Assembly (NCBI GenBank): GCA_947095585.1
Contig: OX352766.1
Coordinates: 18,900,939-18,964,938, forward strand
DNA from: Nephrocerus scutellatus
Taxonomy: Eukaryota > Arthropoda > Insecta > Diptera > Pipunculidae
Reading direction: 5' to 3'
DNA length: 64,000 nt
Shown: one piece after another, positions 27,505-62,033 of the stretch
How positions within the stretch are numbered: the first letter of the stretch is position 1
Layout of the letters: each line of letters opens with the position of its first letter
Position numbers and translations under genes: made by a program
The notes under the pieces: generated by a model
Database searches by the model: none
What the model was told of the DNA's origin: nothing
The model's input: the letters and a program-made list of their open reading frames with translations, nothing else

Positions 27505-30500
27505 TCATGGAACATAATCACGAAGATGAGTTGGCATGTTGCGTGGTCTTGTAGACCTACGAATAGCTTGACCCTGAATTGGTTGAGTTGGTTGAGATAT
27601 GTGCAGCTCCTGGATCCCTGGAGGGTTTAAGGGTGCAGCTTGATCCTGACTAGGTTGCGTTTGTTGGTTTGAAGTTTCAAGAATATACTGGCGGTAAAAT
27701 TGATTTTGTTGATTTAAAGGTGTATTTGAATTACTTGACGAGGAACTTGAATCAATGTTGCCATCAGCAATGTCTGGTGCAAAACGTACTTTACGTTGTT
27801 GAACTTTCGTAGCTTTAAGTTGGTCTATGTGATGTTTAAGTGTATATCCATCATCTAACTTTACAACATAATGGAGTTGTCCAAGTTTCCGTAGTACCGT
27901 ACCTATTTTCCATACAGTTTTGTTGTTTCGACGATGTATGACTTGAACTCTTTCTCCCACGCTTATCCGACGAACACCCGGTATTGGTTTTGTAGTATTA
28001 CATTTCATTGTTGGCTTTAACGCATCTAGTTTAATTCGTATTCGTCTATTGAAGTAAAGTTCAGCTGGACTCTTCCCACAGCTGAGAGGTGTTGCTCTAT
28101 ATCTTTGAAGAATTTCGTTAACTTTACTTTGCAACGACCCTGGTTCCGATGACATAGCTTTTAATTTGCGTTTTAATGTTTGCACGTTGCGTTCAGCTAA
28201 TCCATTTGTACTAGGATGTCCCGGGGCGATTAATTTTTGGAAAATACCATTTTTACTGCAAAAAGATGTGAATTGCTCACTGGTGAAAATTGAAGCATTG
28301 TCTGATACCATTACTGATGGGAATCCATGCGTGGAAAAAATTTCGGTTAGACGGCTTATAGTACTATGTGTCGTAGGTGAGTCGCGTATGACTTTAAATT
28401 CTGACCATTTTGACTTGGCATCGACGACAATTAAAAAATTATGGTCTTGGAAAGGCCCTGCGTAATCGATGTGAATTCTTTCCCAGTTTTCATCTGGTTC
28501 TTGCCACTGGTGCAGTGGGGCTTTTGGAGGTTTATTTTGGACTTCAACACAGGCTTCACATGAACGTACCATTCTCTCGATGTCCCGGTCGATTCCTTTC
28601 CAAACACAGTATCTTCTCGCCAGTTGCTTCATTTTCGTAATCCCCGGATGGGTGTGATGTAATTCTTGAAGTATTTGAGACTGGAGGCTACTTGGAATGA
28701 AAACTCTTTGGCCCTTGAATATAACACCATTGTTGAGCGTGTATCTTCCCTCGTTATCCGCACCATTTTGTAGATTTGCCACGATTGTTGAAAGTTCTGG
28801 ATCTTTTGCTGTCTCTGCTGCTAACGTTGCCGCATTTATGTGTTCACTGGAGATTTCGAAAATTGATTGACTGCATAATTCATTTACCTCTTCACTGATA
28901 ATTTTGTCTGTAGATGGTTTTTCATTCAATTGTGTTGCACGAGATAAACAATCAACATTTGTGTGTTCCGATCCCTTCTTGTAGACTATTTCGTAATCGA
29001 AGCTTGACAGAAATTCGGCGTAGCGCAGTAACCTTGCTGCTGTCATGGCGGGCATCTTGTTGTGTTGATGGAAAATGCGAGTTAATGGACGATTATCGGT
29101 GACTAGTTGAAATTTCCTGCCGTAGAGATACATAAAAAAGTGATTTATTGTAAAGATGATTGCTAATGCTTCGCGATCTAACTGGCTATAATTTGTTTCA
29201 GCTGTTGTCAATGACCTTGATGCGTAAGCAACTGGACGTTCTATGCCGTTGACTAGGTGTGAGAGTACGCCTGCTATACCTGTAGGACTGGCATCACAAG
29301 CGACTATAACTGGCAGTTCCGGATCGAAAGGCATCAGGACTTGATCACTAGCAACAATATTTTTAAGTTTGATAAACGCAGCTTCACATTTTGCGGACCA
29401 ATTAAATTTGTTATCTTTCTGGAGCAGTTGACGTAATGGATATGTTATCGAAGACATTTCGGGTATAAATCTGGTGTAATACGTTATCATGCCCAAAAAT
29501 CTTCGGACATCATCTGCTGTAGTCGGTCGAGGTATATTTCCGATTGCTTGAATTTTTGAAGGCGATTTTGAAATTTTATTATAGCGTACGACGTGTCCCA
29601 GATATTCCACCTGAGTTTGCAAAAATGAGCATTTGGTTTTATTTAGATGTGGATCATGTTGTTTTAGACGTTTCAGACACTCTATCAAGTTGTTTTTACA
29701 TTCAGCCTCGGTTGCGCCATGTATTATAATGTCATCGAAATATGACATAGTTTTGTTTAATCCGGATAGAATTTGCTCAATGATGCGATTAAATTCCGCT
29801 GGCGCAGTTTTAATGCCAAACGATAGACGATTTACGTTGTATGTTCCCTTATGGGTTGATATTGTTTGGATTTCCCTGGATTCTGGATTTACTCGAAGAT
29901 GCAGGTAGGCTTTACAGAGGTCAAGTCGACAGAAATATTTTGACCCTTTGAGATTATTTAATATTTCATCGACACGCCGTATTGGGTAATTTGCAGAAAC
30001 TAGTTGAGGATTAACGCCTGGCTTATAATCGACGCATAGTCGAATACCACCGTCTGGTTTTGTAATGATCACTAGGGGAGATCCCCAATCACTCCTTTCA
30101 CATTTTGTAATAATCCCAGCTGCTTCTAAATCATCGAGTTCCTTTTCAACCCGTTCTCGAAGTGCATGTGGAACTTCTCGTTCTTTGAAGAATATTGGTT
30201 TCGAACCTTGACGAAGCTGGAGTGTGACCTCAAAATTTGGAACACAACCTACTTTTTCTGTAAAAACGTCCTCAAACTTGTCAACAATATCTGAAATTGA
30301 ATCAAAATTATTTTCCTCTAATGCATTGATATTGTTGACATGATGTCTGTCCACTTCATGAAGGTTGATTCCTAAATGGCGAATCCATACCCGGCCTAAG
30401 AGCGCATCGTATTCGCGAGGAACTACATACAACTCCTCATTTGCTATGCAGTTGTTGTATTTGACTTGAACTTCGATTTTACCATCAGGAAATATAATAT

Positions 30501-30528
30501 TTTTAGTATTTATATGATCGGAAAGCAA
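27505..30528 (-). CDS. pol: Gypsy C Pol polyprotein, intact
   Basis: 1007 uninterrupted codons. In order they give the end of the protease (DALLGRVWIRHLGI), then RT with LDDLEAAGIITKCERSDWGSP, LRVNPESREIQT, LSFGIKTAPAEFNRI and the catalytic YFDD box. RNase H starts VIVACDASPTGIAGV and ends EHTNVDCLSR. The integrase zinc domain is HHTHPGITKMKQLARRYC … CEAC. The core has HIDYAGPF, MVSDNASIFTS and STNGLAERNVQTLK. A GPY/F-like C-terminal domain and a Ser/Gln-rich tail ending RRSTRPRNMPTHLRDYVP follow. Pol overlaps gag by 26 bases in another frame, as expected for -1 frameshift expression. F at the second YxDD position is unusual but occurs in gypsy elements. Confidence 0.95.
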   Translation of the reverse strand: MLSDHINTKNIIFPDGKIEVQVKYNNCIANEELYVVPREYDALLGRVWIRHLGINLHEVDRHHVNNINALEENNFDSISDIVDKFEDVFTEKVGCVPNFEVTLQLRQGSKPIFFKEREVPHALRERVEKELDDLEAAGIITKCERSDWGSPLVIITKPDGGIRLCVDYKPGVNPQLVSANYPIRRVDEILNNLKGSKYFCRLDLCKAYLHLRVNPESREIQTISTHKGTYNVNRLSFGIKTAPAEFNRIIEQILSGLNKTMSYFDDIIIHGATEAECKNNLIECLKRLKQHDPHLNKTKCSFLQTQVEYLGHVVRYNKISKSPSKIQAIGNIPRPTTADDVRRFLGMITYYTRFIPEMSSITYPLRQLLQKDNKFNWSAKCEAAFIKLKNIVASDQVLMPFDPELPVIVACDASPTGIAGVLSHLVNGIERPVAYASRSLTTAETNYSQLDREALAIIFTINHFFMYLYGRKFQLVTDNRPLTRIFHQHNKMPAMTAARLLRYAEFLSSFDYEIVYKKGSEHTNVDCLSRATQLNEKPSTDKIISEEVNELCSQSIFEISSEHINAATLAAETAKDPELSTIVANLQNGADNEGRYTLNNGVIFKGQRVFIPSSLQSQILQELHHTHPGITKMKQLARRYCVWKGIDRDIERMVRSCEACVEVQNKPPKAPLHQWQEPDENWERIHIDYAGPFQDHNFLIVVDAKSKWSEFKVIRDSPTTHSTISRLTEIFSTHGFPSVMVSDNASIFTSEQFTSFCSKNGIFQKLIAPGHPSTNGLAERNVQTLKRKLKAMSSEPGSLQSKVNEILQRYRATPLSCGKSPAELYFNRRIRIKLDALKPTMKCNTTKPIPGVRRISVGERVQVIHRRNNKTVWKIGTVLRKLGQLHYVVKLDDGYTLKHHIDQLKATKVQQRKVRFAPDIADGNIDSSSSSSNSNTPLNQQNQFYRQYILETSNQQTQPSQDQAAPLNPPGIQELHISQPTQPIQGQAIRRSTRPRNMPTHLRDYVP

Positions 30529-31729
30529 TTGTTGAAGGTTGCAGTGGTGCTTTTATTTCCAGCTGATTGTATTGATTCCTTGGTATTAATGTATAACCAA
30601 CACCAGTGTCGACCTCAAATTTTTGACGGTGTCCATTTATTTCCACCGTAGCATAGTACTTATCAGCATCGTTATTTTTATTGTGCTGATTGTAAAATAT
30701 ATCGACGATTTGGTTAATACCATACATTTGGTGAACTGGTTCGTCATGATCATCATTTCTATGAGTTGAACTATGGTTTGAAGTTTTGACTAATGTTTTG
30801 ATGCACACTTGTTGTACGTGACCACTTTTTCCACACGATTTACACTTGAGATTACGTGGGTTAGTACGGCAGTCCTGTGTTATGTGGTTGTCTCTACCAC
30901 AGCGTATGCACAAGTTGTCGATTCCCAACTGGGCGTAGTTTATTCTAGATTTGGAACGACCTTGTGCTCTTGAAGACTGAGCCCTGGAACGACTTTTTCG
31001 ACGGTTTGAATTTCTGGCTTGAATTTTGTTTACGGCGTTATTGATGGGTTGCTTTGTAGTCAGCTCACGACAATCGATTTTTGATGCTTCTAATGATAAA
31101 GCTTTTTGTACTATTTTTTTGAAATCGTCTTCTTCCGATTGAAGTAATTGCTCCCGGATTGTGTTGTCGTTAATGCCACGTATAAATTGGGCTCGAAGTA
31201 AAATGTTTGATATGTCAGCCTTGCAGGCACACTTTGACACAAACTCGCACTCATTTGTATCCCGCCGGAGTAATGCCACATAATCAGCTATTGTATGTTC
31301 TTCGCCTTGATATGTGGAAAAAAATCGGTGTTGACTTACTAGTATGTTTTTTTTCGGGCACAAATGAGTTTCCAACATTTTCATTAAGTCGTCGTACTCG
31401 ACTTCGTTGACTGTCTTAGGGGCAATTAATGAAACCAACAACTTAAAATGTGTAGGTCCAATTGAGTTTATAAGCATTTGACGGCAAAGTGATTTATTAG
31501 TAATAACACCCTTCATGGTCAAATAATTTCCGAAGCGTTGATGGTATAACTTAAAGTTTTCTTTTTTATCATCAAAGTTCTCAAATGGAGCACACATAAC
31601 CTGTAATGGTGGCTGCTGCTGTTGTTGTGGTTGTTGTTGTTGACTGCTACTAGCACTTACTTGCTTTAGCAAGTCACGTTGTGATTTGTTGAAGGCTTCT
31701 AACAATTGCGCAAATTGTGAGGCATCCAT
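30503..31729 (-). CDS. gag: Gypsy C Gag with protease start, intact
   Basis: 408 codons from an ATG 58 bases past the LTR edge. It has a Gln-rich segment (residues ~27-42), then the capsid core (FENFDDKKENFKLYHQRFGNYL, DDLMKMLETHLCPKKNILVSQHRFF, YVALLRRDTNECEFV). An Arg/Ser-rich basic stretch and two zinc knuckles follow (CIRCGRDNHITQDC, CKSCGKSGHVQQVC). The last 60 residues are the first half of the protease with FEVDTGVGYTLIP. The triad reads DTGV where DTGA or DTGS is usual. The protease is thus split between gag and pol frames. Confidence 0.93.
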   Translation of the reverse strand: MDASQFAQLLEAFNKSQRDLLKQVSASSSQQQQPQQQQQPPLQVMCAPFENFDDKKENFKLYHQRFGNYLTMKGVITNKSLCRQMLINSIGPTHFKLLVSLIAPKTVNEVEYDDLMKMLETHLCPKKNILVSQHRFFSTYQGEEHTIADYVALLRRDTNECEFVSKCACKADISNILLRAQFIRGINDNTIREQLLQSEEDDFKKIVQKALSLEASKIDCRELTTKQPINNAVNKIQARNSNRRKSRSRAQSSRAQGRSKSRINYAQLGIDNLCIRCGRDNHITQDCRTNPRNLKCKSCGKSGHVQQVCIKTLVKTSNHSSTHRNDDHDEPVHQMYGINQIVDIFYNQHNKNNDADKYYATVEINGHRQKFEVDTGVGYTLIPRNQYNQLEIKAPLQPSTIAFRSYKY

Positions 31730-36284: not shown

Positions 36285-39200
36285 AATTAATAAGTAAATT
36301 TGACACCCTTTTTGGTATTCATTAACAAGTAAATTTGATACCCTGTTTAATAAGTAAATTTGATACCCTTTTTGGTATTCATTAATAAGTAAATTTGATA
36401 TCCTTTTTGGTATTCATTGCTTATATATTTAAATATATATATAAGATCGAAAATGAAGTAAATGATCCTTTAAAATTAATAAGTAAATTTGATACCCTTT
36501 TTGGTATTCCTTTCTTATATATTTAAATATATATACAAGATCGAAAATGAAGTAAATGATCATTTAAAATTAATAAGTAAATTTGATACCCTTTTTAATA
36601 AGTAAATTTGATACCCTTTTTGGTATTCATTAATAAGTAAATTTGATATCCTTTTTGGTATTCATTGCTTATATATTTAAATATATATATAAGATCGAAA
36701 ATGAAGTAAATGATCATTTAAAATTAATAAGTAAATTTGATACCCTTTTTGGTATTCCTTTCTTATATATTTAAATATATATACAAGATCGAAAATGAAG
36801 TAAATGATCATTTAAAATTAATAAGTAAATTTGATACCCTTTTTGGTATTCATTAATTAGTAAATTTGATACTCTTTTTGGTATTCCTTTCTTATATATT
36901 TAAATATATATATAAGATCGAAAATGAAGTAAATGATCATTTGAAATTAACAAGTAAATTTGATACCCTTTTTGGTATTCCTTTCTTATATATTTAAATA
37001 TATATACAAGATCGAAAATGAAGTAAATTATCATTTAAAATTAATAAGTAAATTTGATACCCTTTTTGGTATTCCTTTCTTATATATTTAATATATATAC
37101 AAGATCGAAAATGAAGTAAATGATCATTTAAAATTAATAAGTAAATTTGATACCCTTTTTGGTATTCTTTTCTTATTTATTTAAATATATATACAAGATC
37201 GAAAATGAAGTAAATGATCATTTAAAATTAATAAGTAAATTTGATACCCTTTTTGGTATTCCTTTCTTATATATTTAAATATATATACAAGATCGAAAAT
37301 GAAGTAAATTATCATTTAAAATTAATAAGTAAATTTGATACCCTTTTTGATATTCCTTTCTTATATATTTAAACATATATACAAGATCGAAAATGAAGTA
37401 AATGATCATTTAAAATTAATAAGTAAATTTGATACCCTTTTTGGTATTCCTTTCTTATTTATTTAAATATATATACAAGATCGAAAATGAAGTAAATGAT
37501 CATTTAAAATTAACAAGTAAATTTGATACCCTTTTTGGTATTCCTTTCTTATATATTTAAATATATATACAAGATCGAAAATGAAGTAAATGATCATTTA
37601 AAATTAATAAGTAAATTTGATACCCTTTTTGGTATTCCTTTCTTATATATTTAAATATATATACAAGATCGAAAATGAAGTAAATGATCATTTAAAATTA
37701 ACAAGTAAATTTGATACCCTTTTTGGTATTCATTAACAAGTAAATTTGATACCCTGTTTAATAAGTAAATTTGATACCCTTTTTGGTATTCCTTTCTTAT
37801 ATATTTAAATATATATACAAGATCGAAAATGAAGTAAATTATCATTTAAAATTAATAAGTAAATTTGATACCCTTTTTGGTATTCCTTTCTTATATATTT
37901 AATATATATACAAGATCGAAAATGAAGTAAATGATCATTTAAAATTAATAAGTAAATTTGATACCCTTTTTAATAAGTAAATTTGATACCCTTTTTGGTA
38001 TTCATTAATAAGTAAATTTGATATCCTTTTTGGTATTCATTGCTTATATATTTAAATATATATATAAGATCGAAAATGAAGTAAATGATCATTTAAAATT
38101 AATAAGTAAATTTGATACCCTTTTTGGTATTCCTTTCTTATATATTTAAATATATATACAAGATCGAAAATGAAGTAAATGATCATTTAAAATTAATAAG
38201 TAAATTTGATACCCTTTTTGGTATTCATTAATTAGTAAATTTGATACTCTTTTTGGTATTCCTTTCTTATATATTTAAATATATATATAAGATCGAAAAT
38301 GAAGTAAATGATCATTTGAAATTAACAAGTAAATTTGATACCCTTTTTGGTATTCCTTTCTTATATATTTAAATATATATACAAGATCGAAAATGAAGTA
38401 AATTATCATTTAAAATTAATAAGTAAATTTGATACCCTTTTTGGTATTCCTTTCTTATATATTTAATATATATACAAGATCGAAAATGAAGTAAATGATC
38501 ATTTAAAATTAATAAGTAAATTTGATACCCTTTTTGGTATTCTTTTCTTATTTATTTAAATATATATACAAGATCGAAAATGAAGTAAATGATCATTTAA
38601 AATTAATAAGTAAATTTGATACCCTTTTTGGTATTCCTTTCTTATATATTTAAATATATATACAAGATCGAAAATGAAGTAAATTATCATTTAAAATTAA
38701 TAAGTAAATTTGATACCCTTTTTGATATTCCTTTCTTATATATTTAAACATATATACAAGATCGAAAATGAAGTAAATGATCATTTAAAATTAATAAGTA
38801 AATTTGATACCCTTTTTGGTATTCCTTTCTTATTTATTTAAATATATATACAAGATCGAAAATGAAGTAAATGATCATTTAAAATTAACAAGTAAATTTG
38901 ATACCCTTTTTGGTATTCCTTTCTTATATATTTAAATATATATACAAGATCGAAAATGAAGTAAATGATCATTTAAAATTAATAAGTAAATTTGATACCC
39001 TTTTTGGTATTCCTTTCTTATATATTTAAATATATATACAAGATCGAAAATGAAGTAAATGATCATTTAAAATTAACAAGTAAATTTGATACCCTTTTTG
39101 GTATTCATTAACAAGTAAATTTGATACCCTGTTTAATAAGTAAATTTGATACCCTTTTTGGTATTCCTTTCTTATATATTTAAATATATATACAAGATCG

Positions 39201-41580
39201 AAAATGAAGTAAATGATCATTTAAAATTAATAAGTAAATTTGATACCCTTTTTGGTATTCCTTTCTTATATATTTAAATATATATATAAGATCGAAAATG
39301 AAGTAAATGATCATTTAAAATTAACAAGTAAATTTGACACCCTTTTTGGTATTCATTAACAAGTACATTTGATACCCTGTTTAATAAGTAAATTTGATAC
39401 CCTTTTTGGTATTCATAATATAAGTAAATTTGATATCCTTTTTGGTATTCATTTCTTATATATTTAAATATATATATAAGATCGAAAATGAAGTAAATGA
39501 TCCTTTAAAATTAATAACTAAATTTGATACCCTTTTTGGTATTCCTTTCTTATATATTTAAATATATATGCAAGATCGAAAATGAAGTAAATGATCATTT
39601 AAAATTAATAAGTAAATTTGATACCCTGTTTAATAAGTAAATTTGATACCCTTTTTGGTATTCATTAATAAGTAAATTTGATATCCTTTTTGGTATTCAT
39701 TGCTTATATATTTATATATATATATAAGATCGAAAATGAAGTAAATGATCATTTAAAATTAATAAGTAAATTTGATACCCTTTTTGGTATTCCTTTCTTA
39801 TATATTTAAATATATATACAAGATCGAAAATGAAGTAAATGAACATTTAAAATTAATAAGTAAATTTGATACCCTTTTTGGTATTCATTAATTAGTAAAT
39901 TTGATACTCTTTTTGGTATTCCTTTCTTATATATTTAAATATATATATAAGATCGAAAATGAAGTAAATGATCATTTAAAATTAACAAGTAAATTTGATA
40001 CCCTTTTTGGTATTCCTTTCTTATATATTTAAATATATATACAAGATCGAAAATGAAGTAAATTATCATTTAAAATTAATAAGTAAATTTGATACCCTTT
40101 TTGGTATTCCTTTCTTATATATTTAAATATATATACAAGATCGAAAATGAAGTAAATTATCATTTAAAATTAATAAGTAAATTTGATACCCTTTTTAATA
40201 TTCCTTTCTTATATATTTAAACATATATACAAGATCGAAAATGAAGTAAATGATCATTTAAAATTAATAAGTAAATTTGATACCCTTTTTGGTATTCCTT
40301 TCTTATTTATTTAAATATATATACAAGATCGAAAATGAAGTAAATGATCATTTAAAATTAACAAGTAAATTTGATAACCTTTTTGGTATTCCTTTCTTAT
40401 ATATTTAAATATATATACAAGATCGAAAATGAAGTAAATGATCATTTAAAATTAATAAGTAAATTTGATACCCTTTTTGGTATTCCTTTCTTATATATTT
40501 AAATATATATACAAGATCGAAAATGAAGTAAATTATCATTTAAAATTAATAAGTAAATTTGATACCCTTTTTGATATTCCTTTCTTATATATTTAAACAT
40601 ATATACAAGATCGAAAATAAAGTAAATGATCATTTAAAATTAATAAGTAAATTTTATACCCTTTTTGGTATTCCTTTCTTATATATATTTAAATATATAT
40701 ACAAGATCGAAAATGAGGTAAATGATCATTTAAAATTAACAAGTAAATTTGATACCCTTTTTGGTATTCCTTTCTTATATATTTAAATATATATACAAGA
40801 TCGAAAATGAAGTAAATGATCATTTAAAATTAACAAGTAAATTTGATACCCTTTTTGGTATTCATTTCTTATATATTTAAATATATATACAAGATCGAAA
40901 ATGAAGTAAATGATCATTTAAAATTAATAAGTAAATTTGATACCCTTTTTGGTATTCCTTTCTTATATATTTAAATATATATACAAGATCGAAAATGAAG
41001 TAAATGATCATTTAAAATTAACAAGTAAATTTTATACCCTTTTTGGTATTCCTTTCTTATATATATTTAAATATATATACAAGATCGAAAATGAAGTAAA
41101 TGATCATTTAAAATTAATAAGTAAATTTGATACCCTTTTTGGTATTCATTAATAAGTAAATTTGATACCCTTTTTGGTATTCCTTTCTTATATATTTAAA
41201 TATATATACAAGATCGAAAATGAAGTAAATGATCATTTAAAATTAATAAGTAAATTTGATACCCTTTTTGGTATTAATTTCTTATATATTAAAATATATA
41301 AATAAGATCTAAAATGAAGTAAATGATTATTTAAAATTAATAAGTAAATTTGATACCCTTTTTGGTATTTCTTTCTTATATATTTAAATATATATACAAG
41401 ATCGAAAATGAAGTAAATGATCATTTAAAATTAATAAGTAAATTTGATACCCTTTTTGGTATTCCTTTCTTATATATTTAAATATATATATAAGATCGAA
41501 AATGAAGTAAATGATCATTTAAAATTAACAAGTAAATTTGACACCCTTTTTGGTATTCCTTGCTTATATATTTAAATTAT
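36285..41580. repeat. AT-rich satellite array, 94 bp monomer with 1375 bp higher-order period
   Basis: About 5.3 kb of head-to-tail monomers. Each has AAGTAAATTTGATACC, CTTTTTGGTATTCCTTTC, a TATATTTAAATATATA palindrome, AGATCGAAAATGAAGT and the 12 bp perfect palindrome AAATGATCATTT. Monomer length is 94 bp in the common form. Short 35-40 bp partial units (only the GATACC…GGTATT part) are inserted at intervals. The order of variants repeats with a period of 1375 bp: 36590-37964 corresponds to 37965-39339, and a less exact third copy begins near 39620. Open frames in the array are by-products of the repeat. Confidence 0.95.
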
Positions 41581-41681
41581 ATAATCACGACAATTAAGAA
41601 ATGGAAATGGCTGAGAAAATGGTATTATCAGTGGCATATAGAATTACCACTCTGAAACAATAGCAAGTTTAGTTTACTTAC

Positions 41682-47277: not shown

Positions 47278-48137
47278 TCACAATCGGCCATCCTCTGTAA
47301 GAAACGCCCCCGTTTCTTCGTCATCTCTGCTATCGAACTCTGGATCTATTTGATACCACGGCTTCATTTTATCGGAGGCGTAGACGGATTTATAGAATCT
47401 GCTTTTCCTCTGCATTCCCGGTACGTCCTCAATAACATACCTATCGTTTGGAAGCACAGCAGAAACGATATATGGGCCCCGATATTTCGGTTCTAGTTTT
47501 TGGGACTTCTTCAGTAGAAGGTGGTGGTTGGTTGCTTGATGACAACCAAGTCCTCCTGATTGTATTAGGTGGGTTTCTTGCAACGGCGATCATATCGTTC
47601 TTTCCATTTACGCTTGTAGTTATCAATTCTGCGATTAAACGATTAATGTTCACTGGCGAAGCTAGCGATGATGATCTTTTGTCGTCTTGAATGGCCAGTA
47701 AAAGTTTGTTGTGTAGGATATCACGTGGTCTGAAATCAAAAAGGAGTTCGTTTCGGCTTTTCCCCGTGGTGTTATTTGGCGAATTGTTTATTGTCCACTG
47801 TATATTACGTAATGTTTTGTCCCAGTCACGTCCAGTCTCTTTAGTAGTCATTGTATTTATTGCACTAACTAGCGTCCTATTCGTACGCTCAACCTGTCCG
47901 TTAGCTCTAGGAGTTCGAATAGCATTCTTGATGTGTTGAATGTCATTCTCTTTGCAATAATTTTCAAATGCTTTGGATGTATATGATGTTCCCCTATCCG
48001 AAATTATCTTGCTCGGTGTACCGAATATAAATATTCATTTAAAAATTTTAGAACATGGGAAGTTTTTGTATCTTTAACCGCCTTAATTAAAACGTATTTA
48101 GTAAATGCATCCACAAGGACAATCAGATATTGATTTC
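47278..48137 (-). pseudogene. pol: Gypsy D integrase fragment
   Basis: Minus strand, in order: a first catalytic Asp in LIVLVDAFTKYVLIKAVKDTKTS, then SDRGTSYTSKAFENYCKEND with the second Asp, then RTPRANGQVERTNRTLV with the Glu. The C-terminal domain follows (RNELLFDFRPRD … KYRGPYIVSAVLPNDRYVIEDVPG, ending KMKPWYQIDPEF). Frameshifts lie at about 48020 and in the 47440-47580 overlap. Sequence upstream of 48137 is no longer gypsy, so the element is truncated there, at the edge of the histone/densovirus locus. RT, protease and gag are absent. Confidence 0.85.
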
Positions 48138-48617
<480 letters not shown>

Positions 48618-48623
48618 ATTTCT

Positions 48624-50524
48624 GTGCGCAAAAGAGTTAAAAAACAAAGTAGTACTAAAGATATCAGAGAAGCAGATCGTAACGCAATAAATTCATTTAT
48701 TAAAGATTATAAAGTAAATGGAAAAGTCGCTGAATTAGCAGGAATAATTGGACTATCTAAAAAATATGGTTTTGAAAGTATTGTAGGTGTACGATATCCT
48801 AATATGAATAATGAAGGAAGAACATTCAATCAATTAGTATATGCAGCACGTGAACGAAATTTAGCACAAGAGTGGGCGAGAATTAAAGATACACCCGATA
48901 AAGGAGGATATAGAGATTATCAAGATTTTAAAGTAAAAGCATTAATTTCTAAACAAATGTACGATAGTTATAAAACTGGTGGATATTATTATTCAGCATT
49001 AAAAAGAGATGTTGATGCTGAACGAAGCTCCGGAACCGATAACGAACCCAACGCCAAACGACCAAGACCTGACGATAGTAGTGAATCAAATACAGTTGTT
49101 AATAACGACAATACTATCGCTAAAGATAAAGTTAATCCTAATAATTCTGTTACTAATATGGATGTTACTATGCAAGAAAATGTTCATGAACAAAGTGGGT
49201 CTGGTCGTGGACCGAATACGGGGGCGAGATCAGGTGCTACGGGAAGTGGAAATTCCTCTTCTTCCAACATTACATGGATAAGACCAAGTACTCCTAGTAT
49301 GAGTAATCATATGAGTTTTTCAAAATCACGAATTTTAGTTAGTTATGGATATAGTACAGAAAATATACAAACTTCAGACACCATCGACCAAGCATCAACT
49401 CCATTAGCATTAATACCTGTTGATTTTGTACCATTTTATTTAAGTGAAGCACAATTTGATATGTTACCTAGTACTGCAAAAGTAGTTAAAGTAATATGTA
49501 ATGTTACTCCATTAGGTACTAGAACAGCATTTGATGTAGGAGCAACTTTATCGGGAACAGCTACTTCTGAATATGTACCTATTGGTTTAGTAGCTGAGGG
49601 ATTAAATAAAAAAAATTATGGTAAAAATGTAAGATATGAAGGTGCCACAAGTGATCCAATGAAAGATACAAATGTTAAAACAATTGATATTAAAGAGATG
49701 TATGAACGATATTATAAACATATTCCATCTAATGCTCTATGTGTACCACAAAATATAGATGAATATTTAGTTCACGAATGGAATAGAGAAAAATCTCCTG
49801 ATACTACCAAATATCCAGATTATATTATTCATAATAAAGGTTGTGTTAGAATGGATGAAAAAGTACATCAATTTCTATTGAATCAAGCAGTTGGACAAAC
49901 AATTGCTAATTATGAATACAAACCAAAAAGTGGATTTATTAAAAGGGGAAAAGAACATTAAATACCTTATACTAGAACTAAATATAAATTTCATTCTAAT
50001 AAAACACGTCCCCATAGTCATCCATTGCAATTTTTTCAAGTTGGTAAAAAAGCTATTTCTGGTGATTATCTAAAACAGCAACCACACCTGTTGTAATAAA
50101 CAATATAAATGATATTTATGCAAGAACAATTGAATCTTATGGTACATTTCATCCGCTTATAGGAGGATTTGGTTATGATGCACAGCCTCAATTACATGTT
50201 GGTATTGTTGCAACTCCCCAATTGAAACCAGGCGATAATACCACATCTTATTTAAATAGTGCTTGTTATTGGAAAGTGGAATGTTCCATTGAAATTCAAT
50301 GTAATATTTCTTAATCATTTGGAAAAGGTTTTAGCGTTAGTTGGCCATTGGAAGTTGAATTTTGCGCAAATTACGATCGACGATATACAGATGGTCAAAC
50401 ATTATTCGGAGTAACCGATGATGACAACGGAAAAGTTTCAATCGAAGAAGAAGAAGCAGAAGAAGAAAGTGACCATAATAATGATTTTATGATAATAAGA
50501 AAAACAAGAAAATTAAATTTATAA
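48624..50524 (+). pseudogene. VP: Densovirus-like capsid protein (VP), broken near its C-terminus
   Basis: 445 open codons to a stop at 49959-49961. Residues ~10-130 are a charged helical region with RYPNMNNEGRTFNQLVY. A nuclear-localisation-like AKRPRPDD is at ~144-151. The Gly/Ser-rich linker is at ~190-214. From ~219 comes the jelly-roll coat domain, with the strongly densovirus-like segment around residues 294-312 (VTPLGTRTAFDVGATLSGTA). After the stop, similarity continues in pieces to 50524, with a frame change near 50090 and a further stop near 50312. An acidic stretch comes near the end. The phospholipase A2 domain of full-length VP1 is absent, and no ATG opens the frame. The first codon shown is GTG, just after the histone stop. 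Confidence 0.85.
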
Positions 50525-50525
50525 A

Positions 50526-50557
50526 TTTATTATATTATATTAAATTTTTTCAATAAA
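50526..50557. terminator. Overlapping poly(A) signals of the convergent viral genes
   Basis: Plus-strand AATAAA at 50552-50557 serves VP (stop 50524). Minus-strand AATAAA (TTTATT at 50526-50531) serves the NS genes (stop 50589-50591). Each signal lies downstream of its own stop and past the other, so mature transcripts would overlap by tens of bases. Confidence 0.6.
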
Positions 50558-50588
50558 TGGTAATATGACATAGGATGTGGTTTTTTTT

Positions 50589-52459
50589 TTAATTTTTTAA
50601 TTGATTACAGCTTCTCCATTTATATGAAAACATTCTTGATCTAAAAGCTGTATCATTGGGAAAGACATCATTATTCGATAATACAATAATAGGTGTTCTT
50701 AATACAACTGCATCATTGCTATATTTAACTTTAGCAGCAACTGTATCACCACCAAATAACATTTTTAAAGTTCATTCCATTCCATAATATAATTCTTTTA
50801 TCAACACACTCCATTAATGGAAAAGAACAATATCTATTGAAATTACCAAGTTGACCAAAATTTAAACAAAAATGAATAAAAAAATTTTTTTTCCAGAATT
50901 TGGAGGTGATAATATAAACATTGTATTTTTTTTAGGAATTGATTTATCAATTATTTGATACAATTCCTTTAAAAATTTGTTAATTTTCACTTCATCATTA
51001 TAAAATTGAAAATTCAATAAATTTGTTAATACATCAATAGATTCAGATATTGTATAATAATAGTCGTATAAATTTGATATTGGAGCAATAAATATTAAAT
51101 TTTGTAGTTCTATGGATTTTAAGTATATATATATTTCTTGAAAAGATAAATTATTGATATTGTTGTTAACAATTCTTAAACAATTTTTAATTAATGTTAG
51201 TCCCAAAAACGAAATTCTGATGTCAGCCATAACGATGTATTGATTACGTGCTGTACTGGTGCAGTCGGATGTTTTTGTAAAAAGTCTATGACTTTGTCTC
51301 CCTTTCCTCTTTTTTTACACCTGGCGTCTTCTTTATTTGGTTGGTTGCTGCAAGAAGAAGCTTCATCACCGTTTGATAATTCGGATCTGCAGGCGATTGA
51401 AGAATAAAAGTCGAACGATAATTCGCTTCCTTCCACCATTCCGTTGTCGGTTTTTTCGAGATCTTCGAGAAATCGAATACATCTAATTTCACCACTTGGA
51501 AACCACGTTCTCCTGGCGATGTTAATGTAGATGTACTCCCTGGAATCCTTCTTGAAATAGATTGCGAGATTAGCCCAGTGTTGGATCGTGAACTTCTAAC
51601 TTGGAACGACTCTTCTAGAATATCTTCGATTGATTTTGTTGTTGAGGTATTTGAGGAAAGCACATCTACAGGAATTATAGGAGTGTGTACAATCGTGGAC
51701 GATGTGGATATGATTTCCATGGTGCGCGATGAAGAGGATGGCCCCAGAAAATTTTCTACGTAGTTGTTGATAATCCAATTTGATGTCTCCATGATTATAT
51801 TTTGTTCCAAATATATCATGGACCACTCGCTGTTTAAGAGGACATTCACTAAATTCTTTAATGAACACTTCTTTAATTCTTGCCTCTGATTCACTAATGC
51901 AGAAAACATTTTCTGCACGTATAAAAGGGAATCCATCAATGAATGTATGATCCTCTTCGCTTCGTATTGTTTCTTCGACAATGCTAACGGGACTATCATT
52001 TCCAAAGTCGAGATGGAGTTCAGGAGAAAGTCTGGTATCCATTTTATTAATAGCAAGGAAAGAAGAGAAATAGTTGTGCAATTGTCCTGAATTATTTGTG
52101 CATTTTTGATCTCTTCTTCCACGTTTAATTTCCTCTTTCTCATCTTCGGAAAATCCTCTTCCAATCGATCCTCTATCTTCCTCTTCTTTTTCTTCTCCAC
52201 TGCTATAACTTCTTCTACTGCTTGAGTGTTGACCGGAGCTTCGAAATCGTTTAACATGTCTTGAGATTGCGGAATCTCCACTTCTTCTTCGCTTTCCGAA
52301 TGATTTGGCGACTCCGAGTCAAAAATCAATGGTTCCCTCATAGTTACCTTCTTCTTGTTCGCTGCCATTTGAATTCGAAAAACTATTATTTTTCTCCGGA
52401 GAATATGAATAAGAACAAATACTATTTACGTCACTATCACTTGAAGATACACTGAACAT
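50589..52459 (-). pseudogene. NS1: Densovirus-like NS1 (HUH nickase and SF3 helicase), broken
   Basis: The likely start is the ATG at 52457-52459. A TGA at about 52319-52321 interrupts the frame, which is otherwise open to 51596. It carries the nickase motif HIHIVHD (HUH type, about 51712-51692) followed by a Cys-rich NSCRC. The helicase part is 51230-50589. Walker A appears as SPPNSGKK at about 50890-50910, followed by a frameshift in a homopolymer. The Walker B region reads RIILWNG where the family has WNE, so the acidic residue is lost. About ten residues after it are deleted, with another frame change. Later, KMLFGGD, a sensor-like RTPIIVLSNND and the end are recognisable. NS1 would nick and unwind viral DNA during rolling-hairpin replication; this copy cannot. 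Confidence 0.83.
51286..52368 (-). CDS. NS2: Overlapping NS2-like ORF, 360 codons intact
   Basis: It starts at an ATG 91 bases downstream of the NS1 ATG, in another frame, and stays open across most of the NS1 nickase region. Ambisense densoviruses express NS2 this way by leaky scanning. The N-terminal ~100 residues are acidic with a KKKKRK cluster (~58-63). The middle is hydrophobic and low in identity to anything I know. The C-terminus is basic (KKTPGVKKEERETK). NS2 function is poorly defined in the family. Open length could be chance preservation under the NS1 frame, which is itself interrupted only once here. Confidence 0.6.
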   Translation of the reverse strand: MAANKKKVTMREPLIFDSESPNHSESEEEVEIPQSQDMLNDFEAPVNTQAVEEVIAVEKKKKRKIEDRLEEDFPKMRKRKLNVEEEIKNAQIIQDNCTTISLLSLLLIKWIPDFLLNSISTLEMIVPLALSKKQYEAKRIIHSLMDSLLYVQKMFSALVNQRQELKKCSLKNLVNVLLNSEWSMIYLEQNIIMETSNWIINNYVENFLGPSSSSRTMEIISTSSTIVHTPIIPVDVLSSNTSTTKSIEDILEESFQVRSSRSNTGLISQSISRRIPGSTSTLTSPGERGFQVVKLDVFDFSKISKKPTTEWWKEANYRSTFILQSPADPNYQTVMKLLLAATNQIKKTPGVKKEERETKS

Positions 52460-52610
52460 TTAAAATTATTCAAAAATTTATCCAATCAACTACAACAAAA
52501 CTTGTTAAACGATAAAAACAAAGTAACCACAACAAAGTTGTTTACCTGTTCAATATAAACGACAACAAACTTGTTTACTTGTTACATTATGACGACGACG
52601 ACGACGACCG
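52460..52610. other. Upstream region of the viral NS genes
   Basis: Imperfectly repeated ACAACAAA(A/C)TTGTTTA-type motifs occur at about 52490-52580, partly palindromic. They could be a decayed viral terminal repeat or just AT-rich flank. A GAC trinucleotide run (52591-52609) lies at the insertion site of the Harbinger element. Confidence 0.35.
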
Positions 52611-53113
52611 ATTCCGCCAAGCCACACAGTGATTCTTTCTTTGCTGTTTTTGCTTGAAAAATCAAAACTGCGTTCACATTTTAATTCTCTCCGCGTTTTT
52701 TTGGTTTGGTATGTGTGTAAAAATATTTTATTTTTGACACTGCGGACTGTATATGCATCGTGAAAAAGTCGATTTTATGCTGCGTAAGCATAAAAGCAGA
52801 GTAGAGGTGGTCGCAAATCGATTGCATCCATGAGTGATTCGCAAGTGCACGTACTACCTCCACGTTGGTGACCAGCGGTAACTAGAGTAGATTTATTCAA
52901 CTCTAGGCTAAAGTACGGTGCTAAAGGAGTAAACCTTGATAAAAAAAATCCCTCAATCTACGGTGGAACAGCTATGCCTATGGATGTGTGGTTGGTGGGT
53001 TAACCAGCCGTTAATATGCGAACTCTGGATACCGGGCGACCTTCAGTTTAAATTAGCCTTCCCCTGGTAATGCGGAGCTCTGCCAGGGGTGACTGTTATT
53101 TCTCGCGCTACTC

Positions 53114-54445
53114 GTGGGAATAAAAATGAATTACAATAATAACTTACCAAATACTGTCTCTTTTCTAAGAGATGAGAGGCAAGATGATGATGATGCTGCA
53201 ATGATGGCAATGACTTCAATAGCTGCTGCTGGTCTGCTATTAGTAGCTGCTCGAAAAAAGGAGCAAGAAGCAAAAAGGAAGAGACGTTGCTGGATTAAAA
53301 ATTACAGAAAATCCAGGAATGAAAACGGCAACACTCAAGTCCTTATGCAGGAATTGGATGCAAGTTCAGCCGATTATAAGAATTTTATACGGATGGATGA
53401 GGATTCATTCAATTTTATTTTACCGGCAATCAGAAGCGAGATAGAAAAGCAGGATACCTTTATGAGGCCAGCAATTACTGCGAGTGAGAAACTCTCCGTT
53501 ACGTTAAGGTTCTTGGCGACTGGCGAAAATTTCATGGAGCTAGATTATAACTCCAAGTTATCAAAGTCATTCCTGTCTACTGCAATTTTAGATGTGTGCG
53601 AGGCGATATATAAAAATTGTAAAAACCAATTTTTAAAGGTAAATTAAACCAAATCAATAAACATAAACACACATTTTATAATATAAAATATTTTATTTCA
53701 GTTTCCCACCAGTAAAGAAGAATGGTCAAAAATTGCAGACGACTATAGTCTTAAATGGCAGTTTCCAAACTGTGTAGGGGCTCTCGATGGGAAGCGCATT
53801 GCTTTCAGGCCCGCAAAAAAAGTTGCGCCATTATATTATAATTATAAAGGCTTTAATAGCATAGTGTTGCTAGGGCTGGCAGACGCATTTGCGAGATTTA
53901 TTTATATTGATGTTGGGTGCAATGGCCGCATCAGTGACAGTGGTGTTTTACACCGTTCTAATTTTATGTATGTGCTGCAGCAACCCGATAAGTATTTCCC
54001 ATCAAGAAAATTAATTGGAAATTCAAGATTGCTGCCACATGTGATCATTGCTGATAATGCTTTCCTTTTATCAGAAAATTTTAAAACGCCATATCCATTT
54101 ACTACAACGGATGAACAAAAAAAATTTTTAACAGAAGATTAAGCCGAGCTCGTCAAAATATTGAACGAGCTTTCGGAATTTTAACTAATCGGTTCCAAGT
54201 GTTACAAAAGCCAATCAATCTGCATCAAGATAAAGTTAAGACAATCGTGCAATGTTGCTGCGTTCTACATAATTTTTTAATTGAACGAAGTCGTTGGTAC
54301 AGAGATGAAGCTCATGTTTAAAAACAAGACAATATTGTAGATCAACAAAAGAAGATAGATGGCCGTTTAAGTACCAATAATTCAAGATCGGGTGAAATAG
54401 TGCGAAAGCAATTAATGGAATATTTTAATAACGAAGGCTCTATAT
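53114..54445 (+). pseudogene. Harbinger transposase (HARBI1-like), one intron, frameshifted
   Basis: Exon 1 is 53114-53638 (175 codons). A 63 bp intron (GT 53639, AG 53701) interrupts in phase 0. Exon 2 continues with the DDE-4 nuclease: CVGALDGKRIAF (first Asp), NYKGFNSIVLLGLADAFARFIYIDVGCNGRISDSGV (second Asp) and an IIADNAF segment. The Glu-containing RARQNIERAFGILTNRF follows only after a frameshift in the run AAAAAAAATTTTT (about 54117-54130). A stop at about 54321 interrupts the C-terminus. The N-terminal region has a hydrophobic AAAGLLLVAA stretch. It would cut and join the TIRs. Confidence 0.87.
53639..53701 (+). other. Intron of the Harbinger transposase
   Basis: 63 bp, AAAG|GTAAAT … TTATTTCAG|TTTCC. 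Splicing keeps the reading frame (LK then FPTSKEEW) and removes the stop at 53645. Confidence 0.8.
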
Positions 54446-54999: not shown

Positions 55000-57243
55000 C
55001 AAGGGTGTCCAACCTTTTTGTTTCCCTGGGCCACATTAGAAGAAGACAATGTGTTTTGGGCCACAAGTATATTACCATAGCTGATGAACGAAAAAAAAAC
55101 GTAAAATATATTGTTTTAATGTTTAAGTACTTCAAAATTTATTAGTTTCTGATTTTTTTCTTAATGAAACATTGTTTTATACATTTTATGTAAAATAAAA
55201 TTAATTATTAAAATCATACAATTAATGTGATACTTGACATTGAAGTTGACAGACTAATGCGTCAATATCTGGTTCGATTGACGTGGTTGCAATTCTCAGG
55301 CAGTCCTCAAGGTGTGCATCCAACATGTTGGTTCTAATTTTGCACTTAGTATGTTTCATTCTTGAAAAAAGTTGTTCACATATGTACGTGCTTCCAAACA
55401 ATGATGACATGAATAAAGCATGACTGTGCATAGCGGGATATTTGTCTCTGGGCAGGTATGATTTATAAAAGTCCAACAAAGAGACGTGATCAAATTTCTC
55501 TTTAAGTTGGATGTCAGATTGCAACTCTATGCATTCCATTTGAAAGTTTGCTGGCAGCTTAACTATGTCAACTGTAAATGGAGTTGCAAAAATACAAAAA
55601 TACTTATTATTTGTCTGAAAATCCTGAAATCTATATTCGAATTCTTGTATCAAATCTGAAAGTAAGCCCGCATATTTTTCCCCATTTTTAGGAATATGTT
55701 TGGACAACGTGCTGAAATGCAAAAAGTTGTTTGCATTTAATTGGGCCTGCCAATGAGCTGTTAAATCTACCAAAAATGCTAAATCTGTAAGCCAGTCGGC
55801 ATCGTCAAGTTCTGGCATAGATTTAGCTTTCGATGCCATAAAAGATTTGATTTCTTAAGTACGTTATAAAATCTTTTAAGCATTTGTCCTCGACTGAGCC
55901 ACCTTACTTCTGTAAAGTATACGATATCGCCATACTCAGCATCAACATTTTTGAGAAATTCTTTGAATTGGCGATGATTCAATCCCCGGGCTCTTATAAA
56001 ATTTACAGTCTTGACGACGATTTGCATAACATGATCCATTTTTAAAGATTTTCCGCATAGATTTTCTTGGTGTATTATACAATGGTACTTCATCAAACGG
56101 GAGTTTTCGACAGCAACGGCATCGTCTCCTATTAATTTTACAAGCCCCTCTTTTTTACCGATCATAGCTGGCGCACCATCCGTAACTACCCCAGATATAT
56201 TGGAAAGTGACAAAGAAAATCGCTTTAATGTTTTTTTTTACAGCTTCATATAATTCTATTGATTTTGTCGTGTCTTTTAATGGCACTAAAGAAGCCATTT
56301 CTTCAGATACACTATATTCGTCATTAATACCTCTAATAAAAATGGCAAATTGAGCCGTATCAGTAGCATCAGTACTTTCATCCATGGCCAAAGAATAAAA
56401 TTTAAAACCACAGGCTTTACTTTTCAAATGCTTTTCGATAGATTCCCCAAGATTGTCAATTCTTCTGGCAATAGTTTGATGAGACAAACTGATTTTAGAA
56501 ATATCACCTTTCTTGTCTGGACAAATAATATCTGCCACGCTTTCCAAGCATTCCTTAATAAATTCGCCATCAGAAAATGGTTTCGATTTTTTGGCGATTA
56601 AGTTTGCGACTACATAACTAACCTTCACAAATGATTCTGTGTGAGTTGTAACGTTGCTGAAAAACTTTTGTTGAGATGAAAGACCTTTTTTTAATACCAT
56701 TAACTGGTCTTTGCGACACATTCCTTGATATGCATCGAATTTGGAAGCATGTTTTTGTGAATAATGTCTTTTCAAATTATACTCTTTGAAGACAGGTATT
56801 GAAGCACGACAAATTAAGCAGAGTGCCTCACCTTTCACCTCAAGAAAAAAGTAGTCCTCTGTCCATTTTTCATTAAAAAAACCTTTTTTCAACGATATAT
56901 TTCCGTTTCTTTCCTTTTTCTTGAGACGTAGAGGCCATGCACGAAATGTTCAACCCGATACCAAAAAAAGTGGTTGGAAAGAAAAATACCACGTAAGCCA
57001 CCAAGTGACCAACAACAGAAAAGCGTAGCTAAGCGAGCAACGCTAATAGAAAGAGAAGAAAGCGCTGTCTGTTCTGTGTCTGGTTTGTTCCTGTTTCTGT
57101 TGTCTGTCACTTGGCAACACAGCGCACAAATCATTCCTCAGAAAAATTGAAATGCTTCAGTAACAATTTTAAAAATTTTCGGGCCGCATTGCTACTTGCG
57201 TTGGGCAGCATGCGGCCCGCGGGCCGCGGGTTGGACAACCTTG
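55000..57243 (-). mobile_element. hAT transposon nested in the Harbinger element
   Basis: An 8 bp TSD GGGTAGAT (54992-54999 and 57244-57251) brackets termini CAAGGGTGTCCAACC and GGTTGGACAACCTTG. 2244 bp. The right sub-terminal region has GCGGCCCGCGGGCCGC, and the left has CCCTGGGCCACATT. This matches the pattern of a hAT group known for termini reading roughly CAGGGGTGTCCAAAC…GGGCC. Confidence 0.92.
55222..56892 (-). pseudogene. hAT transposase (GTF2IRD2-like), frameshifted
   Basis: Three pieces in order: 56892-56155, 56213-55779 and 55839-55222. The first has a zinc-finger region (CLICRASIPVFKEYNLKRHYSQKH) and the RNase H-like core start (FYSLAMDESTDATDTAQFAIFIRG). The second has GVVTDGAPAMIGKKEGLVKLI, CIIHQENLC and VRWLSRGQML. 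The third has the C-terminal dimerisation region (SLFGSTYICEQLFSRMKHTKCKIRTNM). Two frame changes lie near 56220 and 55840, the first next to a T run. The domestic vertebrate protein GTF2IRD2 carries a transposase of this group (known). Catalytic residues appear present in pieces. Confidence 0.87.
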
Positions 57244-60766: not shown

Positions 60767-62033
60767 AAGTGTGTCCGCCGGGAAGGTATACTACTTTGTT
60801 TGTTTATAATTTTTGATTAAATGAAAGAGAATGGATCTTATATTGATACATTTTTTATTTAATGTCGGCAATTATGTATGGAATACAATATCACAAATGA
60901 GAGCCCTTTTGAGCACATTTTTCATTACATTCTCACACATTTCACGCGGTATTTCATTAATTTCATCACGAATATTTTGTTTGAGTTGCTCAAGCGTTTC
61001 TGGTTTATTTGCATAAGCCTTGCTTTTCATATATCCCCACAAAAAGAATTCCGGAGCAGTCAAATCAGGCGACCGTGGAGGCCAATCAACATCACCCTTT
61101 CTTGAATAACTTGTTGTGGAAAGAGGTCTCGCAGTAATTCTATTGTAATCCTGGCTGTATGCGATGTGGCACCGTCTTGTTGATACCACATGTTAATCAA
61201 GCCCAAAGCATGCAGTTGTGGCTTTGAAAAGTTTTCAATCATATCACGATATCGCTCCCCATTCACAGTTACCGTTACACCGTTTTTATTTTCAAAAAAG
61301 TAAGGTCTAATGATTCCTCCTGACCAAATTGCACACCAGACTGTCACTTTTAATGGATGTTAAGGTGACTGATGAATAAAAATGAGGGTTTTCCATTGCC
61401 CAGAACCGACTATTCTGTTTATTCACATATCCATTCAAATGAAAATGTGCCTCGTCACTCATTATGATTTTTTCATGATAATCGGGGTTGCCATGGGCGA
61501 GCTGTAACATCCTATTGGCATATGTCCAGCGGCGTAAATGGTCTTGTGGAAGAAGCTCTTTTGTCAACTGAATCTTAAATGGAAATAAATGCAAATCCTT
61601 GTGCAAAATTGTGGCCAAACTTGTTCTTTGAAGACCAAGCTCCTGAGCACGGCATCGAATTGAGGTTGATAGATTGTTTTGAACACTTTCTTGAGCAGCA
61701 GTAATGTTTTCAGCCGATCTTGCAGTACGTTGTGGCCCATGCTTGGCCCTATCACCTACAGACCATCTTTCTTCGAAATCATTCACTACACGATAAATAG
61801 TTCGTTTTGTTGTTGTTCTCCCAAAAATTTCACGTAACTTTCTCATCGTCACAGTTATCGATGATTGATTTTGATAAAATGTTTTAACGATTAAAACACG
61901 TTGGTTTATCGAATATTTTTCCATAATAAATTTGCCCCGTGTCTACTTCACGACTGCCATATATGAACTGTCAAAACTAACATCTACCAAAATGGCGGCA
62001 AAACAAAGTAGTATACCTTTCCGGCGGACACCC
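60767..62033 (-). mobile_element. Mariner/Tc1-superfamily element, full length
   Basis: Terminal inverted repeats share GTGTCCGCCGG(G/A)AAGGTATACTACTTTG at left (from 60770) and right (ending 62033). TA lies on each side (60765-60766, 62034-62035). 1267 bp, typical of the superfamily. One transposase gene on the minus strand fills it. Confidence 0.9.
60872..61924 (-). pseudogene. Mariner-like transposase, two frameshifts
   Basis: 61924-61307 holds the helix-turn-helix N-terminus (YSINQRVLIVKTFYQNQSSITVTMRKLREIFG, TKRTIYRVVNDFEERWSV) and the first catalytic Asp (IIMSDEAHFHLNGYVNKQN). 61347-61060 holds WCAIWSGGIIRPYFF and the second Asp (WYQQDGATSHTA). 61189-60872 holds WPPRSPDLTAPEFFLWGYMKSK with the third Asp and the C-terminus. 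Breaks lie at about 61330 and between 61176 and 61066. The spacing between the last two acids is about 35-36 residues across a frameshift, so the exact DDxD subclass is not certain. Confidence 0.87.

Follow-up and report, generated by a model that had tools for sequence, protein, structure and literature searches.

What kind of viral insertion lies in this stretch of fly DNA, how did it arrive there, and is any part of it still in use? These questions are raised by a locus of the pipunculid fly Nephrocerus scutellatus, located at approximately 48.62–52.46 kb of a 64-kb stretch of contig OX352766.1 (positions 18,900,939 to 18,964,938 of the forward strand; this whole stretch is called the window below, and all coordinates follow its numbering). 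An original prediction, made from the letters of the sequence, described the locus as a nearly whole endogenous densovirus-like genome, with a coat gene (VP) on the plus strand and the genes NS1 and NS2, which overlap one another, on the minus strand. We find that the element is a further case of a known kind, a decayed near-complete densovirus genome with both halves in order and one viral frame unbroken. With high probability it descends from an ambisense densovirus (Densovirinae) that became endogenous through a germ-line insertion, one that was truncated, joined at its ends and has since decayed.

Convergent plan and the coat gene

The list of open frames of the element bears out the coordinates, strands and convergent plan given by the original prediction, with the VP set on the plus strand and the NS1/NS2 set on the minus strand meeting tail to tail. 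The polyadenylation signals are also placed as described, two AATAAA signals on opposite strands being separated by 20 bases at the meeting point. The features of the VP half and of the meeting point are as follows.

48618–49961, plus strand: VP, 5'-truncated open piece ending at an in-frame stop; homology starts at about 48633–48660
49962–50066, plus strand: VP continuation in the same frame, from the premature stop as far as the next frame change (tblastn)
50066–50524, plus strand: C-terminal part of VP in a different frame, interrupted by a stop at 50312–50314 (Pfam and tblastn)
50526–50531, minus strand: AATAAA signal, NS side
50552–50557, plus strand: AATAAA signal, VP side

The coat gene carries most of the evidence for a densoviral origin. 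In a Pfam scan of ten open pieces of the element, two matched Denso_VP4 (PF02336): 48624–49958 (E 2.6e-16) and, with positions 229–299 of the model, 50066–50311 (E 2.3e-9), while the best sequence match of VP in the PDB is the capsid protein of Galleria mellonella densovirus (E 4.3e-9). The original prediction was open to being overturned by best matches outside Densovirinae; on the capsid side, VP instead matches Denso_VP4 and densovirus capsids of the PDB. A protein search returned 23 homologues of VP, the best with 60% identity over 98% of the query (E 1.1e-170), and the identity of short partial relatives reaches 84% over 20%. Denso_VP4 is carried by 22 of the 23 and a phospholipase A2-like domain is listed for 18; the named ones are the putative VP1 of Periparus ater ambidensovirus, an uncharacterized protein of Rhagoletis pomonella and an unnamed product of Ceratitis capitata. 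The alignment has 59 columns that are invariant in all 16 other rows, and the element agrees at 57 of them; of the two exceptions, one lies at its unaligned start. No relative of VP was confirmed in the viral contig collection among 2 pattern stretches found with the VP piece and 8 found with the VP alignment, and the phage collection gave no VP match.

The coat frame is open as first described, over 447 codons from stop to stop and 445 from GTG 48624, but it is a 5'-truncated part of VP and this GTG is not the start of the gene. Most full-length relatives align with it only from their own residue 36–52 on (P0017 from residue 73), and judged by these alignments the 445-codon frame is without roughly 36–52 N-terminal residues. 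The phospholipase A2-like domain of the relatives sits in the stretch that the element has lost, and there they have conserved YLGPGN and HD..Y stretches, presumably the calcium loop and active site of the parvoviral phospholipase A2. When the N-terminal 52 residues from eight relatives were used to search the whole window for this region, the best match had an E of 0.074 and lay inside a retrotransposon open reading frame (ORF); we read the absence of the domain as loss by truncation and not as the mark of a different type of virus. Past the premature stop, frame-3 tblastn matches of P0001, P0002, P0016, P0022 and others reach 50066, and several others stop at 50039–50063. The nearest full-length relative, P0001 (687 residues), aligns to VP with its residues 52–533 and then to 50066–50515 with its residues 536–684. 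The lesions of VP are the stops at 49959–49961 and 50312–50314 and a frame change near 50066.

In the VP tree the element groups with P0015 (support 96/91) and then with P0001 (100/100) among 20 rows, with P0016, P0019, P0022 and P0023 left out as fragments. Good support is limited to 7 of the 17 inner branches and there are long branches joining in other parts of the tree, which makes its deeper placement unsure. These two nearest relatives (60% identity over 98% for P0001, 59% over 50% for P0015) differ from the element in that both keep the phospholipase A2-like domain, and they come from contigs of 4.3 and 1.3 kb with the source label lgn, which we take to stand for Logan assemblies. The VP1 of Periparus ater ambidensovirus (P0010) has the same architecture past the truncation point, at 38% identity over 97%, but is a named virus protein with a phospholipase A2-like N-terminal domain and falls outside the three-row group of the element.

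An intact NS2 within a broken, presumed NS1

The minus-strand half consists of one intact frame and of pieces of a longer one, listed here in the order in which they would be read.

52319–52459, minus strand: presumed NS1 N-terminus from ATG 52459, ending at an in-frame stop at 52319–52321 (frame continuity only)
51286–52368, minus strand: NS2, intact, overlapping NS1, 360 codons from ATG
51599–52318, minus strand: NS1 piece with the HUH nickase motif HIHIVHD at 51712 (motif and partial relatives P0028 and P0029)
51197–51595, minus strand: NS1 middle piece, in the frame of the HUH piece beyond the stop at 51596–51598 (frame continuity)
50862–51314, minus strand: NS1 piece with the Walker A-like SPPNSGK at 50909 (motif and weak E1 helicase match)
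50746–50931, minus strand: NS1 piece in another frame with the Walker B-like KRIILWN at 50799 (motif, without profile match)
50589–50771, minus strand: NS1 3' piece with the helicase motif C-like IVLSNND at 50687 (motif, without profile match)

The name NS2 is given by position and overlap, none of its six homologues from the protein search (best E 5.1e-119) being named so. P0024 shows 61% identity over 100%, with residues 1–348 of its 348 matched. Two others are the products of LOC119662935 and LOC119679258 of Teleopsis dalmanni (P0025, 58% over 96%; P0026, 66% over 74%), homologues in a fly genome that are named only uncharacterized, and the remainder are two more unnamed proteins and one protein of Bactrocera latifrons. 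Among NS2 columns with 4 or more of the 6 rows present, the relatives agree fully at 38, and the element matches them at every one. Over 51289–52368 of the minus strand the NS2 frame has no stop, the NS1 frame two and the third frame 38. Searching the viral contig collection with the NS2 alignment confirmed no relative among 45 pattern stretches. A Pfam match of NS2 to His_kinase (0.054) looks like chance and was not used.

NS1 rests on motifs and on two partial relatives, because no parvoviral NS1 model and no named NS1 matched. We take the motifs to be those of an HUH nickase and an SF3 helicase, and have named them accordingly. When all six frames of the window are considered, each of the four motif patterns is found a single time, always on the minus strand and inside the element. 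Of 1000 sequences simulated from the element with a first-order Markov model, none contained the HUH or the Walker A pattern, 5 contained the Walker B-like pattern and 9 motif C, counts that serve as a guide only, the patterns having been written after the sequence was seen. The HUH piece resembles two proteins that are not named NS1, P0028 in its first part (37% identity) and P0029 over a part of its length (35%), and the Walker A piece resembles the papillomavirus E1 helicase model (E 7.2e-5; 22.5 bits, under the Pfam cut-off of 26.5) and E1 chains of the PDB (E 0.09–0.11). The NS1 frame is interrupted by the stops at 52319–52321 and 51596–51598, and the order of the motifs across frames, read without a homologue to align, points to three frame changes between 51314 and 50746.

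The best E for five NS1 pieces in PHROGs was 0.13, and none of eight pieces, including the NS1 N-terminus and the Walker B and motif C pieces, matched NCBIfam at E up to 1. A PDB match of the HUH piece to Crov588 (E 0.0089) was rejected as a repeat match, and the Pfam names DUF402 (0.014) and DUF6157 (0.099), found among the searched pieces at chance-like levels, were left unused. The first part of both P0028 and P0029 matches the NS1 frame and the later part the NS2 frame; they are therefore either damaged copies or the result of gene models that link two frames.

Taken together, Denso_VP4, the homologues of VP and NS2, the layout of the frames and the pair of AATAAA signals support the original description of the locus as densovirus-derived, ambisense, endogenous and nearly whole in its coding genome.

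Junction, age and flanking DNA

The left border of the element is marked by a fragment of a host gene.

48540–48617, plus strand: 3' end of a histone H2A gene (25 codons and the stop), a piece of host DNA on the left border (Pfam, PDB)

Pfam places Histone_H2A_C on 48519–48614 (E 5.7e-15), followed by the stop at 48615–48617, and 24 of the 25 residues are identical to PDB chain 2nqb_C (E 1.6e-9), as they are to a fly H2A sequence. This 78-base scrap, which the original prediction did not mention, adjoins the element, with some 15–42 unassigned bases between it and the first VP homology. Searches of the window with the four core histones H2A, H2B, H3 and H4 gave, beyond the scrap, no match better than E 0.044.

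The position of the H2A scrap against the truncated end of VP suggests end-joining repair. A linear, truncated piece of an ambisense densovirus genome would have been inserted by non-homologous end joining into the germ line of an insect, in all likelihood a fly, and the H2A scrap may have been captured as filler or may mark the place of the break; the stops and frame changes of VP and NS1 would then represent decay after insertion. A published account describes random and rearranged integration of the DNA of the densovirus JcDV in Sf9 cells, where stretches of cellular DNA, ~20 and ~70 nucleotides long, flank or separate the viral fragments (PMC5978394). A truncated viral end beside an H2A scrap fits that picture, and the scrap is a natural example of the junction type reported for densovirus DNA in cultured insect cells.

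VP carries two stops and one frame change, and NS1 two stops and, as read here, three frame changes. Set against 774 single-base opportunities for a stop (304 in VP, 293 in NS1 and 177 in NS2), the four stops correspond to ~1.6% neutral change per site, with a Poisson range of 0.4–4.0%, on the assumptions that all lesions are independent and later than the insertion and with our own piece boundaries and frame-change count. An insertion with four stops and this level of change is therefore suggested to be fairly young. The original prediction had said, from the open coat frame, that it may be fairly recent or partly conserved; it did not mention that this frame has lost its N-terminus and that VP and NS1 are both broken. 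The element would thus be a relic with no capacity for NS1 or a whole coat protein, from which NS2 could be translated if it is transcribed.

The window shows 48.6 kb of sequence to the left of the element and 11.5 kb to its right, and what identifies an endogenous element, host-type DNA on both sides together with decayed genes, is found here. Clear retrotransposon ORFs lie farther left. On the right, the plus-strand ORF at 53864–54139 matches DDE_Tnp_4 just under the cut-off (E 2.4e-5) and the ORF at 53114–53647 has no Pfam match; we presume both to derive from a Harbinger-like transposase. No inverted terminal repeats joining the two borders were seen among the longest 25 of 93 inverted pairs, and 52440–52700 folds no better than its shuffles (z 0.11). 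Relatives of the element are also found on very large contigs of other flies and are therefore chromosomal in flies: the VP homologue of Rhagoletis pomonella lies on a contig of 82.8 Mb, that of Ceratitis capitata on one of 77.4 Mb and one NS2 homologue of Teleopsis dalmanni on one of 246 Mb.

Alternative explanations and known insertions

Several results weigh against an endogenous, nearly whole densovirus genome. No NS1 piece matched a parvoviral NS1 model of Pfam at E up to 1, none of the 29 pattern stretches that the HUH piece found in the viral contig collection was confirmed as a relative, and a protein search returned no NS1 relative among 253 candidates at E up to 0.01, a search that covered proteins of ~132–420 amino acids. 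A full NS1 is longer than ~420 amino acids. The structure models of the HUH piece and of NS2 are too poor to use (mean predicted local distance difference test scores of 34.8 and 43.2). At the borders, the right end lies somewhere beyond 52459 at a position that is not fixed, and no exact repeat of 8–14 bases is common to 48560–48640 and 52440–53110, although end joining needs none. Finally, the two minus-strand ORFs nearest on the left (47281–47583 and 47444–47851), which we read as a decayed retrotransposon integrase, yield one sub-threshold match to SH3_Tf2-1 (0.0042) and no match, respectively. A rival explanation is that the locus is contamination or a product of misassembly, in which the contig of an exogenous virus was misjoined to host DNA. 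The stops and frame changes in VP and NS1, the truncated VP directly beside the H2A scrap, the transposon ORFs on both sides and the chromosomal relatives in other flies all speak against it, and we give this explanation almost no credence.

Two further proposals concern function. The element might be partly domesticated, NS2 being held open by selection in the fly lineage and VP and NS1 being left to decay: the 360 codons of NS2 have neither stop nor frame change, against two stops in the NS1 frame that shares their DNA, all 38 of its conserved columns are retained, and Teleopsis dalmanni annotates NS2 frames of 339 and 265 amino acids as proteins. By chance, however, NS2 would have escaped the stops with a probability of 0.40 and four evenly spread frame changes with a probability of 0.27, or ~0.11 jointly, and VP is about equally well kept in its invariant columns (57 of 59). 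Chance could thus explain the survival of NS2, which is suggestive and not evidence of use; we regard domestication as improbable, and are just as sceptical that higher flies have retained NS2 of this densovirus lineage as a gene of their own. The overlap of the two genes offers a built-in comparison of one broken and one intact frame that could test selection on NS2. Some fly clusters of PIWI-interacting RNAs (piRNAs) look like one-strand retrotransposon graveyards, and the larger ORFs of 1–31.7 kb, mostly of retrotransposons, lie on the minus strand (21 of 23), so that this region could be such a cluster, with the element as a heritable memory against related densoviruses. That would add a function to the endogenous insertion and is compatible with it; but one transposase-like ORF of the right flank is on the plus strand and a convergent element yields antisense of only one gene set in each direction, and we think such a role unlikely.

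As an endogenous densovirus genome that has decayed, the element has precedents. Francois et al. 2016 describe four large densoviral sequences of arthropods that span NS and VP, one of them integrated in the pea aphid, and the keeping of both gene sets is therefore not unprecedented; most of their genomic sequences lie at the ends of scaffolds of less than 10 kb (PMC5013282), against the 48.6 and 11.5 kb of flank visible here. The Acyrthosiphon pisum element is like the present one in being an integrated densoviral sequence spanning NS and VP, but its host belongs to another insect order and the aphid copy is reported to be transcribed (PMC5013282), whereas here VP and NS1 are broken; it probably belongs to another densovirus lineage. 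For Teleopsis and tephritid flies, the titles and abstract beginnings surveyed in an open library of papers describe no densoviral insertion, which full texts, preprints and papers outside that library may do. The present element adds a nearly whole and apparently fairly young densoviral fossil to the insect record and ties it to relatives of VP and NS2 in Rhagoletis, Ceratitis, Teleopsis and Bactrocera that are listed as uncharacterized, hypothetical or unnamed proteins.

The remainder of the window is rich in mobile DNA. To the right of the element, the minus-strand ORF at 56158–56892 encodes a Spin-doc type zinc finger (1.1e-8), the one at 55225–55839 has no match and the one at 61310–61924 has a DUF4817 helix-turn-helix (7.6e-8); the minus-strand ORFs in 55222–56892 and 61307–61924 look like decayed DNA transposons. 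No Rfam family reached its gathering score in the window, and no transfer RNA genes were found there. At 161–31729, 21 of the 23 ORFs of at least 140 amino acids are on the minus strand and the two on the plus strand overlap minus-strand ones. Twenty of the 21 were scanned with Pfam; 17 matched with an E no higher than 0.001, and 13 of these matches also exceeded the curated cut-off. Most are to reverse transcriptase, gag, protease, integrase and Pao peptidase, and others are to DUF1759 and DUF5641, which we take to be parts of Pao/BEL elements. Within this region, 27505–31729 is a largely open gypsy-type element with a pol frame of 1007 amino acids and a gag-like frame of 408 that overlap slightly, and between the region and the densoviral element lies an AT-rich satellite-like array (36286–41583, ~20% GC) with a period of 94 bases and further periods of 129, 223 and 248 bases.

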